Positions 33,185 through 36,829 of a DNA stretch of 50,765 nucleotides are shown one piece after another. The stretch spans positions 1 through 50,765 of the forward strand of contig PABH01000016.1 in NCBI GenBank assembly GCA_002702705.1, written 5' to 3'. Position 1 is the stretch's first letter. Each line of letters begins with the position of its first letter. This DNA comes from Anaerolineaceae bacterium. Its GTDB lineage: Bacteria; Chloroflexota; Anaerolineae; Anaerolineales; Anaerolineaceae. Under the pieces are notes generated by a model. The model saw only the letters and a list, made by a program, of their open reading frames with translations. It ran no database searches and was not told where the DNA came from. The position numbers and the translations under genes were made by a program.

Positions 33185-34213
33185 TTAATGGCACTTGCTC
33201 CGTCCTTCATCCATCACATCTCCCTCAATGTTTACGAATTGCCATTCATACTCTGTTTTGTATAAATTCAAAAACAAAACCCCAAATTGACCAACAATTT
33301 GTTTTTCACTATAAGACTTTATTTCTGCGAGACCACGTGAACTTGCCCCACCGGTTCCAACAATAAAAGAGCGCATTCCGCTAACTTCATCTACCTCTCC
33401 TTTTTGGTTTAAAGGCTGAACACGTTCATAATGATGATCATGGCCGCTTAACACTATATCTGCATCTGCTTCATACAATAGATCCCAAAACGTCGAAATC
33501 CAATAAGTTTCTCCTGCCAAGCCTGATGACCAACGAGGATGATGCCAGAAAGCCAATGTACATGCCGACTGCGATTCAGCCAAGACCTCTTGCAGCCATA
33601 CGGCTTGTTCAGATGTTGGTCCACATGGAACAGCACCACAATTTGTATTTAAGGAAATGATAAGCCAATCTCCTAATGAAAAAGAATAATATCCTTTGCC
33701 AACCTCACCAGCCCGCTGTCCAAAATAAACATAGTAACCTTGCAACGGGTCGCTATAATAATCATGATTCCCCGGAGCTGGATATATTTTATTTTTATAT
33801 TTTCCCCAGGCAGGATCAAAACATTTTTCATACTGCCATAAATAACCATCCTCATTATTCGGATCACCCAAAATCAATACTGCATCCAAATTTTCCGGCA
33901 ACAAAGCGGCTGTTAATTCAATCCCTTCCTGTCCACAAATGGAGATATCCCCTACCGCAGCGATCCGAACAGGTGATGGTGTGGACATATAGGTTGGAAC
34001 CAAAGTCACCGTGGGACTAGGAGAGGGAGTTTGGGTTAATGTAGGGTAAACCGTGGTTATTACAGGCGTAGTCAATTGATAAACCTTGGTGGGGGTTCGA
34101 TTAGGAGTCGATGTCTCACTGATATCAACTGAACTTGAAAAACAACCTGTCATCCCTATTAATAGGATAAACCAAACAAAAAATCGAAAAAATGACATAT
34201 AGTATTGTAACAT
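33185..34213 (-). CDS. Calcineurin-like metallophosphoesterase lipoprotein
   Basis: A 342-residue exported phosphoesterase. The N-terminus has a hydrophobic signal and a lipobox-like 'GMTGC' (Cys24), then a Thr/Pro/Ser-rich linker of about 50 residues (30-80) typical of surface lipoproteins. The catalytic domain carries the two-metal motifs in order: Asp89 ('AVGDIS', where the family usually has GDxH), Asp117 ('LILGDPNN'), Asn149-His150-Asp151 ('GNHD'), His224-His225 and 'GHDHHYER' (258-265). This is closest in pattern to purple acid phosphatase-like enzymes; the missing first His (Ser91 in its place) is noteworthy. Start could also be the ATG at 34198; neither has a clear ribosome binding site. 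It is monocistronic. Substrate unknown. Confidence 0.85.
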   Translation of the reverse strand: MLQYYMSFFRFFVWFILLIGMTGCFSSSVDISETSTPNRTPTKVYQLTTPVITTVYPTLTQTPSPSPTVTLVPTYMSTPSPVRIAAVGDISICGQEGIELTAALLPENLDAVLILGDPNNEDGYLWQYEKCFDPAWGKYKNKIYPAPGNHDYYSDPLQGYYVYFGQRAGEVGKGYYSFSLGDWLIISLNTNCGAVPCGPTSEQAVWLQEVLAESQSACTLAFWHHPRWSSGLAGETYWISTFWDLLYEADADIVLSGHDHHYERVQPLNQKGEVDEVSGMRSFIVGTGGASSRGLAEIKSYSEKQIVGQFGVLFLNLYKTEYEWQFVNIEGDVMDEGRSKCH

Positions 34214-34287
34214 TTTGAGTTAATTGATAAATTGGCTAAACGTCTATAATTAAAAATATCCTTTTATCCAAATACATAACACAAATT

Positions 34288-34316
34288 TTGTCTTTTTAAT
34301 TTTTTTGAGCTATACT
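34288..34316 (+). promoter_or_regulatory. Promoter of the LysM/DhaL-like unit
   Basis: TTGTCT (34288-34293), 17 bases, TATACT (34311-34316). Start near 34323 gives a 60-base leader; GGGAGA lies seven bases before the LysM gene ATG. Confidence 0.65.
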
Positions 34317-34383
34317 CAATATATACCATGTTCGATTTAATACTAATCTATTAATATCCACAATTTATCAGGGAGAAACGACA

Positions 34384-34836
34384 ATGGAAGAGAAAAAAAA
34401 GAATATTTTCCAAAAAGCTGTTGATTCGATTAGCAGCCGCGACGAAAAAGAAGCCATGAAATCTGCTCAAGCTGAAGCTGCTAAAGCCAAAGCAAAATTG
34501 GAGGAAGTAAAAAAAGAAGCAGAAGAAGCAAAAATTGAAGCGGCCAAATTACGTAACGAAGCCCGGCGAGAAGAAATGAAAGACAAATTGGCTGAAGCTG
34601 CGGCGGCACGAGCAGCTGAAAAAGAACGTGCAGAAGCCGAAAAAGTGGTTAAACACGTATGGACCAATGAAGATACCTATGCCAGTCTGGCTTTTAAACA
34701 TTATGGTTCCATTCAAGAACCCTATTGGCGTTTGATTTACGAGCACAATAAAGATATTATCGGTGACCATCCCAACAATATCCGCACCGGCCTCGAAATT
34801 GAAATTCCTCCCCTTCCCCCAGAATTAGAAAAATAA
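34384..34836 (+). CDS. Coiled-coil protein with C-terminal LysM domain
   Basis: A 150-residue soluble protein without signal peptide or membrane helix. Residues about 15-85 are an Ala/Lys/Glu-rich coiled coil ('AKAKAKLEEVKKEAEEAKIE'), and about 90-145 form a LysM domain of the YgaU/XkdP type ('YASLAFKHYGS', 'WRLIYEHNKDIIGDHPNNI', 'GLEIEIPPLP'). LysM normally binds GlcNAc polymers, but in this cytoplasmic subtype other roles are known (potassium or phage-baseplate proteins). It is the first gene of a two-gene unit with a DhaL-like protein nine bases downstream and a strong terminator behind it. The function of the pair is not known to me. Confidence 0.82.
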   Translation: MEEKKKNIFQKAVDSISSRDEKEAMKSAQAEAAKAKAKLEEVKKEAEEAKIEAAKLRNEARREEMKDKLAEAAAARAAEKERAEAEKVVKHVWTNEDTYASLAFKHYGSIQEPYWRLIYEHNKDIIGDHPNNIRTGLEIEIPPLPPELEK

Positions 34837-34845
34837 GAGTAAAGA

Positions 34846-35511
34846 ATGAGTAACCAAAACATCGATCTGGTCGAAATTTTCCAAAGTGTAACCGCCGCCT
34901 TGAGCAACAACAAACAAGAACTTAACCAAATGGATGAATACAATCAAGATCATGGCGATCACATGGTGGATACATTCAAGACCATTACAAAAGCTTTACA
35001 ACAAAAACAAAATGAACCGCCTGCTAAGGCTCTTTCGTATGCATCCAATCAATTAAAACAAGAAACCAGCAGTGGTTCCGGAAAATTATACGCCCAGGGT
35101 TTGGAACAGGCTGCACAACAAGTACAAGGCCAAAACTTAAATCCAGAGATGGCAATGCAGTTATTAACCACTCTGATTGGTGGTGGGAACGCTACCTCCA
35201 CCGTCGCACCCACTCAGCCTCCAACCAACCAAGAGCAGGCTGGTGGATTGTTTGGTTCTTTATTGGGAAACCTAACTGGTGGAAACCAAAACCAGCAGGG
35301 TGGTTTAAGTGACGGTTTGGATATGGGAGATTTGCTCACCGCAGGAATGGCATTTATGCAATCCAAAAGACAAGGGGAAAGCAACTTAGAAGCGCTCATG
35401 GATGCTGTAACTGCCGCAAATGGGATGGGCAGCCAACCTCACCGGCAAAAATCCACCCAACTTGTTACCCAATCCTTTCTTAACGCACTACAAGGCTTTG
35501 GGAAAAAATAA
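34846..35511 (+). CDS. Degenerate DhaL/DAK2-like protein with Gln/Gly-rich insertion
   Basis: A 221-residue soluble protein. Three blocks line up with the DhaL (DAK2) ADP-binding domain of dihydroxyacetone kinases and fatty-acid kinase FakA: 'NKQELNQMDEYNQDHGDHM' (22-40; DhaL has LDAAIGDGDHG), 'TSSGSGKLYAQGLEQAA' (about 75-92; DhaL GGASGPLYG), and 'KRQGESNLEALMDAV' (DhaL VGDKTMLDAL). Metal-binding Asp30, Asp35 and Asp38 are near the expected places but the register is off by one, so catalysis is doubtful. Residues about 110-165 are a Gln/Gly/Asn/Pro-rich insertion with 'GGLFGSLLGNLTGGN'. It is cotranscribed with the LysM gene. The similarity is by eye and needs a profile search. Confidence 0.6.
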   Translation: MSNQNIDLVEIFQSVTAALSNNKQELNQMDEYNQDHGDHMVDTFKTITKALQQKQNEPPAKALSYASNQLKQETSSGSGKLYAQGLEQAAQQVQGQNLNPEMAMQLLTTLIGGGNATSTVAPTQPPTNQEQAGGLFGSLLGNLTGGNQNQQGGLSDGLDMGDLLTAGMAFMQSKRQGESNLEALMDAVTAANGMGSQPHRQKSTQLVTQSFLNALQGFGKK

Positions 35512-35531
35512 GTATTAATTTATTTCCATAT

Positions 35532-35569
35532 AAAAGAACATGGCTCATATAATAAGCCATGTTCTTTTT
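35532..35569 (+). terminator. Terminator of the LysM/DhaL-like unit
   Basis: AAAAGAACATGGCT (35532-35545) and AGCCATGTTCTTTT (35555-35568) form a 14-bp stem with a 9-base loop, ending in TTTTT: a strong intrinsic terminator 20 bases after the stop codon. Confidence 0.9.
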
Positions 35570-35896
35570 GTATCCCATAGAACCACCCACCCACTGATTC
35601 AAATTAAGTTTTTTTTGAAATACTTTACGCTTCAAAACTCTTAATTACCCAATATGGTTAGCTGAACGAAAAATGGATCAGTATTTTTAAAATAACAATA
35701 TCGTTTTGCTCAAAAAAATTCTATCGGTTTTTGTAATACAATTGAATTTTGAATCAAATGTCATTTATTCTATTCGCTGCTCCTTAAAACCAATTAAAAA
35801 ATGTTTTCTCTGATAAAATTACATCGTCTTTATTTAGCGTTTTTATAAAACAGCCTGTCCGGCTGATTACATGACTATTTCAAAGGGTAAAATTTT
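35570..35896 (+). promoter_or_regulatory. Gene-free gap with possible promoter
   Basis: A/T-rich and without a gene. TTGAAT (35742-35747), 18 bases, TATTCT (35766-35771) could drive the downstream gene with a leader of about 120 bases. A five-base stem CAGCC/GGCTG surrounds 35853-35867. Nothing else stands out. Confidence 0.35.
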
Positions 35897-36829
35897 ATGT
35901 TTAAAAGCCAAGAAATCACCTACCGTGACGTTTTAAAAAGTGTCCAACTATCGAATAATTTTGTTGATGTTATTATCGCCAAAGAATTTGGTCCGCGGAT
36001 TGTTCACTTTGGTCTGCGTGGCCAACCCAATATGTTTTCTTTAAATGAAGAGCAGCTGCATACCTTCCGGGAGAGTAAACAATATCAGATTGTTGGTGGT
36101 CACCGACTTTGGACAGCTCCTGAGGATTTAAAAAGCACCTATCTGCCAGATAATTTTCCGGTAACAATCGAACCGATTGCCAATGGAGCCATTGTCAGCC
36201 AGCCAGCAGGTGAAATAACCCCCTTTTATAAGGCAATGCAAATCGAACTTTCTGAAAAATACCCCTTGGTAACCATGACACACACTATCCGCAACGATGG
36301 AATGTGGTCGATCAAAATGGCCCCTTGGGCGCTTTCTGTCATGGCCCCAGGTGGTCTAGGCATCATGCCCCTTCCACCACGGGGTAGTCACAGTGAAAAT
36401 TTACTACCGAATGGTGGTTTGGTTTTTTGGCCCTATACCAATTTTGCAGACCCTCGCTGGCGCTGGGGTTTTGAAAATATCTGCGTACAACAAGAACCTT
36501 CTATGGAAATCCCACTTAAATTCGGGATGGCTGCAAACATCGATTGGATCGGATATGCAAACCACAATGCACTGTTTGTAAAAAAAACCTCTTTTAAGGA
36601 AGGTGCTGAGTATCCAGACCGTGGAACGCCGTATCAAATTTTCTTAAATCACCGAATTCTAGAAGTTGAAAGTATGGGACCTCTTACCGTTCTGGAACCA
36701 GGGCAAACAGTAATCCATACAGAGACCTGGGCCTTATTGGAAAATGTGGAATTTCCTATCAATGATACGGTGATAAAAGAAGATTTACAGCCGCGGATTG
36801 AGCAAGTTTTTAACCAAAGTGCTGCTTAA
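35897..36829 (+). CDS. Galactose-mutarotase-fold protein (DUF4380-like)
   Basis: A 310-residue cytoplasmic protein, all beta by appearance. 'EFGPRIVHFGLRG' near the start, 'GGHRLWTAPE' at about 73-82 and 'MPLPPRGSHSENLLPNG' at about 157-173 recall the DUF4380 / galactose-mutarotase-like superfamily, whose members bind sugars with a conserved 'GGHRxWxAPE'-type block. Catalytic His of true mutarotases is not obvious, so it may be an isomerase or lectin-like protein. It is monocistronic, downstream of a 327-base gap, and its stop codon abuts the stop of proA on the other strand with no base between. Family assignment from memory of the motif, not a search. Confidence 0.6.
   Translation: MFKSQEITYRDVLKSVQLSNNFVDVIIAKEFGPRIVHFGLRGQPNMFSLNEEQLHTFRESKQYQIVGGHRLWTAPEDLKSTYLPDNFPVTIEPIANGAIVSQPAGEITPFYKAMQIELSEKYPLVTMTHTIRNDGMWSIKMAPWALSVMAPGGLGIMPLPPRGSHSENLLPNGGLVFWPYTNFADPRWRWGFENICVQQEPSMEIPLKFGMAANIDWIGYANHNALFVKKTSFKEGAEYPDRGTPYQIFLNHRILEVESMGPLTVLEPGQTVIHTETWALLENVEFPINDTVIKEDLQPRIEQVFNQSAA

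Follow-up and report, generated by a model that had tools for sequence, protein, structure and literature searches.

In the genome of an uncultured Anaerolineaceae bacterium, a gene encoding a coiled-coil protein with a LysM domain lies directly upstream of a gene encoding a homologue of the DhaL (DAK2) kinase domain. The two genes recur side by side in relatives of the same class, and the second product carries a metal-binding motif altered from that of DhaL. The pairing apparently has not been described before: a literature search in PMC for the pair or its parts, which leaves most subscription papers outside, returned no account of the pairing, in agreement with the preliminary description, which knew of no such system. 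As a tentative best reading, we propose that the DhaL relative is probably a non-kinase, ligand-binding subunit that would operate with a cytoplasmic LysM adaptor in a two-protein complex encoded by a small operon.

Gene layout and the LysM protein

The window (the whole stretch of DNA analysed, 50,765 nucleotides) belongs to a host genome of 5.9 Mb in 74 contigs. Both reading frames of the pair lie on the plus strand, where the preliminary description had placed them, with a spacing of 9 bp (Table 1), and the genes are presumably co-transcribed. The proposed 14-bp terminator was confirmed as a perfect stem after the DhaL-like gene (arms 35532-35545 and 35555-35568; dG -19.3, z -6.6). A consensus scan of positions 33900-35900 found its four terminator-like sites on the minus strand and listed none on the plus strand; it probably missed this stem because it admits loops of at most 8 bases, and the loop here has 9. 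The promoter, earlier called good, did not withstand scrutiny, since the candidate matches 9 of 12 consensus positions and is not above chance, with three such sites found against 5.4 in shuffled sequences. The flanking genes look unrelated to the pair, as had been stated: a divergent metallophosphatase gene lies upstream, and the downstream gene has a Pfam match to DUF4380 that falls below the cut-off.

Table 1. Positions in the window of the gene pair and of features assigned to it
Feature	Position	Strand	Basis
Sigma-70-like promoter candidate, TTGTCT-17-TATACT	34288..34316	+	Consensus scan; 9/12 positions matched
Coiled-coil and LysM protein, 150 aa	34384..34836	+	ORF; alignment, profile comparison, hydropathy
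Conserved N-terminal motif of LysM protein, about KKxIFxKxxDAxSxRDEK, residues 5-22	34396..34449	+	Alignment A1
Ala/Lys/Glu-rich helical, presumably coiled-coil region, about residues 23-86	34450..34641	+	Alignment; model
LysM domain, about residues 88-145	34645..34818	+	Profile and family matches
Protein of predicted DhaL/DAK2 fold, 221 aa	34846..35511	+	ORF; Pfam, AlphaFold2 model, Foldseek, VIA, hhalign
Rebuilt pocket motif LNxxDxxNx[DN]HGD[NH]MV, residues 26-41	34921..34968	+	37 aligned rows; hhalign
Gln/Gly-rich insertion with LLGSLLGG-like repeat, helices 5/6, about residues 113-158	35182..35319	+	Alignment, model
HRQKS (residues 199-203) in place of DhaL DPGATS	35440..35454	+	Alignment
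Likely intrinsic terminator: perfect 14-bp stem, 9-base loop, T run at end	35532..35568		Stem search, folding energy

The first protein had been characterized as a signal-less coiled-coil LysM protein, a view that our comparisons support. Its sequence contains no hydrophobic stretch, the best Kyte-Doolittle mean over 19 residues being -0.14, and the highest such mean among 24 paired homologues is 1.21. The window protein itself gave no match to Pfam LysM (PF01476) at E<=1, and 4 of the 19 members of its alignment matched at E<=0.01. The profile of these 19 found as its best solved match the potassium-binding LysM protein Kbp (YgaU; 7pvc, E 4.9e-9), followed by a Kbp fusion and then by a phage tail protein, 9g8s (E 7.5e-8). 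Kbp is a cytoplasmic protein with a BON domain. The window protein shares with it a LysM domain without evident export signal but departs from its BON and LysM architecture, having a coiled coil in place of BON, for which Pfam gave no match at E<=1. Matches in PHROGs to endolysin and baseplate families (best E 3.1e-8) we read as matches to the LysM part. The Ala/Lys/Glu-rich helix, which differs in length among relatives, spans residues 8-93 in a low-confidence model (pTM 0.29).

A DhaL-like protein and its pocket

Resemblance of the second protein to the DhaL/DAK2 ADP-binding domain, proposed in the preliminary description, is borne out by profile comparisons. Pfam Dak2 (PF02734) matches residues 35-107 only, at 35.4 bits against a cut-off of 27 (E 1.3e-8); some relatives score below this cut-off, and 20 of the 24 members of the family alignment A2 match at E<=0.01 (left out of A2 were L086, whose frame enters unknown bases, L090, and L074, the member from G018). 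Alignment by hhalign of the family profile with five genuine DhaL sequences from this class extends over 112 columns (E 9.1e-9), and the best solved match of the profile is Lactococcus DhaL (3cr3, E 4e-5). The AlphaFold2 model is weak (two sequences; pLDDT 59.8, pTM 0.59, 87 of 221 residues below 50), with predicted helices at residues 8-21, 23-29, 36-53, 59-73, 77-92, 100-112, 134-145, 160-175, 181-192 and 198-219. It nonetheless leads to DhaL and FakA entries: none of its 177 Foldseek matches reached E<=0.001, and the first 18 without exception belong to DhaL, FakA or Dha kinase (E 2e-3 to 2.7e-2, Foldseek probability 1.0). VIA gave Z values of 11.4-13.5 for 15 such entries, with 166-187 residues aligned, against 7.9 for the next unrelated entry, on a scale where helical bundles without kinship may reach about 13. 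Both searches thus recover the eight-helix DhaL barrel from a low-confidence model, and because of the VIA gap to the next rows, taken with the sequence evidence, we regard the predicted DhaL fold as secure. The Gln/Gly-rich insertion reported earlier was also found, and varies in length among relatives.

DhaL proteins chelate two Mg through an aspartate triad, D-x4-D-x-D. This motif in E. coli DhaL (2btd) is LTGLDREIGDADHGLNM, with D30, D35 and D37, and the DhaL proteins of the window's own class are alike (e.g. LTELDSAIGDADHGINM). The window protein has instead LNQMDEYNQDHGDHM, that is D-x2-N-x-D with Asp at 30 and 35, and so lacks the triad; across the family, D-x4-D-x-D-H-G has usually become D-x2-N-x-[D/N]-H-G. 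The change of motif noticed earlier was confirmed: the loop from D30 to H36 is shorter than that of DhaL in all 37 aligned rows, by two residues in 35, by three in L078 and by five in L079. D30 is kept in 36 of the 37 rows and N33, which takes the place of DhaL D35, in 35; at position 35, the counterpart of DhaL D37, 20 rows have Asp, 16 have Asn and one has Lys; N27 and G37 are present in every row and H36 in 35. Where DhaL has DPGATS, R200 is kept in 34 rows and S203 in 30. Polar residues invariant or nearly so in A2 include N22, N27, D30, N33, H36, S78, Y82, R200 and S203, of which N27 to H36 belong to the metal motif and the last two to the DPGATS place. With conserved residues at these two places, the site looks rebuilt rather than decayed, and it presumably binds something.

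Comparison with FakA bears on this site. According to one structural source (PMC9136124), FakA makes its contacts through Asn32, Asp38 and Asp40, and to ribose through Asp185; Asn32 is one of three Mg contacts, indicating that Asn can serve, and a D38A/D40A double mutant fails to complement, indicating that the Asp pair is needed. Asp185 falls in VDSGGKG of the 7rm7 chain, which we matched by motif to DhaL DPGATS under a numbering that assumes a 20-residue tag and fits Asn32, Asp38, Asp40 and Thr41. Most of the residues by which DhaL and FakA hold ADP-Mg2 have been replaced here, which makes ADP binding itself doubtful; the likeness to an ADP-binding domain noted earlier stands for the fold.

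Set beside DhaL (the ADP-binding subunit of PTS-dependent dihydroxyacetone kinase; 2btd, 3pnl, 3cr3), the family shares the predicted helical barrel, the Dak2 match and a D-H-G-x-[NH]-M core, but differs in its shortened metal loop, in the changes of D35 to N and of D37 to D/N, and in the replacement of DPGA; the window protein has in addition its insertion between helices 5 and 6, and no DhaK was found beside it. The N-terminal domain of fatty acid kinase FakA (7rm7, 8vit) has the same barrel (VIA Z 13.3-13.4) and resembles the family in having Asn among its metal contacts. Unlike FakA, the DhaL-like protein has neither the linker nor the C-terminal domain, no FakB was found beside it, and the equivalents of Asp38/Asp40 and Asp185 are largely lost in the family.

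Distribution of the pair and of its parts

Among 61 genomes (the host and 60 relatives), 27 encode the DhaL-like protein and 26 the LysM protein; the genes lie side by side in 17 of those 27 and not in the other 10. LysM matches are wholly lacking from nine of these 10, and the DhaL-like protein can therefore occur without a LysM protein. In a broader census of 56 genomes (55 and the window), with a pair defined as two genes on the same strand within 500 bp, 25 have a LysM gene beside the DhaL-like gene (19 of them upstream of it, six downstream), and 31 have none at this place. The paired genes are 9 bp apart in the window; in the 18 other genomes with LysM upstream the spacing is 0-34 bp, and in those with LysM downstream it is 34-230 bp. 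Pairs were present in 25 of 42 genomes of the window's class and in none of 14 outside it, with both gene orders seen, across four family groups (f1, f10, f24, f64). The census omits the five loci L155-L159, which hold true DhaL, the four loci L140 and L152-L154, which are of the LLG-repeat kind, and weak matches (15 of 37 genomes of the class search were not taken); of the 53 genomes of the phylum search, 18 new ones were taken, the rest being already included or weaker than E 1e-12. The genomes counted are not independent, and the counts are uncorrected for contig ends, where two genomes (G227, G668) have the gene; two others (G245, G361) contribute fragments.

Adjacency in relatives, put forward earlier as a test of the pairing, is thus real but optional. 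The pair does recur, yet to call it a self-contained module was too strong, given the 31 genomes without a LysM neighbour and the LysM homologues that lie beside other genes. In 37 loci compared by neighbour, the DhaL-like family itself occurs in 25, LysM in 20, the next cluster (which we take to be ABC transporter ATPases) in 10, and all others in six or fewer; several of the lesser clusters reflect same-genus synteny, and the flanks otherwise mostly vary. A fused LysM-DhaL protein was also considered and rejected, no ORF of the scanned loci matching both profiles at E<1e-5.

A search of 400 genomes of the phylum found a match in 53, many of them weak, and added family groups f82 and f92 outside the class. 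Seven f92 genomes, six of them near-copies from one genus, have LDGxGDGD[AT]GDN (D-x3-D-x-D), and seven f82 genomes have D-x2-[DN]-x-[DN]. DPGA is present in 13 of the 14 proteins listed from these groups; in the fourteenth, from G361, it is on the second piece of a gene that a stop codon divides into two ORFs (L192 2425-3171). A tree of 55 family rows and five DhaL rows, from which the fragment of G245 was left out, places all 24 rows with a LysM neighbour inside one 39-row group (SH-aLRT 94, just under the starred level), outside which are the 14 f82/f92 rows with G193, which retains DPGA, and G227. Within the 39-row group DPGA occurs in no row, that of G668 ending before the place. The state of having a LysM neighbour or none changes nine times on the tree, and fewer times if weak branches are distrusted. 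Other Chloroflexota families may accordingly preserve intermediates, from D-x3-D-x-D with DPGA, through D-x2-[DN]-x-[DN] with DPGA, to D-x2-N-x-[DN]-H-G without it. In two f92 loci (L193 3063-6346, L199 3203-6491) the DhaL-like gene follows a gene for what is presumably a flotillin/SPFH protein. A scan of viral sequences with the DhaL-like protein found no relative and its PHROGs matches were at E>=0.03, and a phage origin of the gene was rejected.

DhaK and FakB present substrate to their kinase subunits, and the preliminary description had remarked on the lack of either. In the host, Dak2 and Dak1 share a 577-aa frame and a FakA-like protein occupies one of 570 aa, both elsewhere in the genome, and the idea that the window gene is a missing host DhaL was rejected on these grounds. 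In 56 stretches of 3.5-50.8 kb, the host's Dak1 part, its FakA-like protein and eight DegV proteins gave no match at E<=1e-8, and its canonical Dak2 part matched only DhaL-like family members themselves, in four f82 loci; no substrate-binding partner of the DhaKLM or FakA/FakB kind was therefore found alongside, consistent with that remark. The host has 16 DegV/FakB (PF02645) matches, a number that seems large to us; one is a 99-aa fragment, and one is found on contig C55, close to the FakA-like gene.

Coiled-coil LysM genes also have other neighbours. The LysM-protein profile matches 126 of 298 class genomes, many in the LysM part only, and a profile of LLGSLLGG-repeat proteins (A6) matches 58 of the 298, in at least two of them on the DhaL-like gene itself. 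These repeat proteins, from the same class, carry DILGSILGG/Gln repeats similar to those of the DhaL-like protein and can likewise have a LysM neighbour, but their globular part is unlike its own; Pfam gave no family above cut-off in five of six scanned. A coiled-coil LysM gene lies beside an LLG-repeat gene in at least five genomes (G130, G253, G126, G226, G230), of which only G126 and G226 are independent, the other three being rows of A6 and two of these (G130, G253) having been picked for LysM adjacency; the loci are L140 4375-6259, L162 4204-5820, L163 5299-6476, and contigs C4 of G126 and C56 of G226. None of the 13 class-search genomes of the census has a separate LLG-repeat match, those of G222 and G276 falling on the DhaL-like gene. 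On the boldest reading of the pair, given below, repeat and LysM may form an exchangeable assembly system, because the same kind of LysM adaptor adjoins an otherwise unrelated repeat protein.

A DUF4332 gene immediately precedes a coiled-coil LysM gene in two loci by Pfam (L091 7002-7962, L174 4853-5746) and in a third by its appearance (L167 5409-6357). In L206 (5074-6947) a gene similar to DUF4332 follows the DhaL-like gene, and a gene for a small protein, presumably related to DUF3597, precedes it. In two genomes of one genus (L176 5254-6205, L177 4994-5994) the coiled-coil LysM gene directly follows a gene that we assume to encode ribosomal protein S9.

Possible roles of the pair

The preliminary interpretation retains its DhaL fold, its altered motif, the pair and the lack of a kinase partner, and loses its good promoter and its self-contained module. 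On the reading we favour, the pair would be a small operon for a cytoplasmic complex of two proteins, one of which descends from an ADP-binding domain of the DhaL/FakA type and, by prediction, keeps its helical barrel. Its pocket has been rebuilt by shortening of the Mg-Asp loop, by change of two Asp positions to Asn or to Asp/Asn, and by loss of DPGA, and from this remodelling of the nucleotide and metal site we infer that it probably stopped being a kinase subunit. Because polar residues of the site are strongly conserved in their new form, it would most likely still bind a small ligand, be it a nucleotide on which no kinase chemistry is performed or some other compound, phosphorylated or ionic. 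The protein could then act as a sensor or regulatory subunit. Its LysM partner would oligomerise through the long coiled coil and serve as adaptor, and the LLGSLLGG/Gln-rich repeat would provide a flexible tether. Against this reading we count the 31 of 56 genomes without a LysM neighbour and the nine of 10 unpaired relatives without a LysM match; the Mg contact made by Asn32 in FakA (PMC9136124) together with retention of Asp 30 and 35 in the window protein, with which nucleotide-Mg binding could persist; the relatives outside the class that keep D-x3-D-x-D or D-x2-D-x-D with DPGA; and, for the fold, the weakness of the model, the lack of a Foldseek match at E<=0.001 and the Z of about 13 that unrelated bundles may attain in VIA.

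Several of these points serve its nearest rival, which we consider unlikely: that the protein has kept nucleotide binding and phosphotransfer, as a kinase subunit whose unusual, shortened metal site contains Asn, and that the LysM protein or an unlinked protein presents the substrate to it. Such a subunit would account for a DhaL fold over the chain, for conservation of D30, N33, D/N35, H36 and G37, and for the outside-class relatives with D-x3-D-x-D and DPGA; Asn is one of three FakA Mg contacts (PMC9136124), and the 16 DegV/FakB-type matches elsewhere in the host offer possible partners. It must contend with Asn at position 35 in 16 and at position 33 in 35 of 37 rows, with the disappearance from the LysM-linked clade of the motif that holds the FakA ribose Asp, and with the lack of a substrate-binding partner in the 56 stretches. 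Still less likely, the DhaL-like protein would be a mere helical scaffold with a vestigial pocket, its adjacency to LysM being inherited synteny without joint function; the 31 unpaired genomes and the clustering of the LysM label on the tree would fit, whereas the two gene orders, the four family groups, the mostly variable flanks and the retention of N27, D30, N33, H36 and G37 in 35 to 37 of 37 rows argue for more than that. Two further proposals turn on the LysM protein. Its similarity to Kbp, as the best solved match of the profile, and its lack of a hydrophobic stretch would suit a cytoplasmic sensor of ion or osmotic stress, with the DhaL-like protein relaying or buffering the signal; with no BON match, and with the phage tail LysM 9g8s almost as good a match, we think this improbable. 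LysM is usually a peptidoglycan-binding domain, and with the endolysin and baseplate matches this would accord with a pair exported, or placed at the cell wall, by a non-classical route; that is the least probable of these proposals, in view of the window protein without a hydrophobic stretch, the peak of 1.21 among its 24 paired homologues, and a partner whose predicted fold is that of an intracellular kinase subunit.

In its boldest form, which we hold to be rather unlikely, our proposal would have a DhaL-type kinase domain converted in Chloroflexota to a sensor module that is non-catalytic and whose ligand pocket is new, within an undescribed regulatory complex with cytoplasmic coiled-coil LysM adaptors. 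The question posed is whether a DhaL barrel with Asn for a metal-binding Asp still binds nucleotide. If the proposal is true, the family would exemplify the natural conversion of a kinase subunit into a different kind of protein, and the pair would suggest a role for LysM domains that are not exported.
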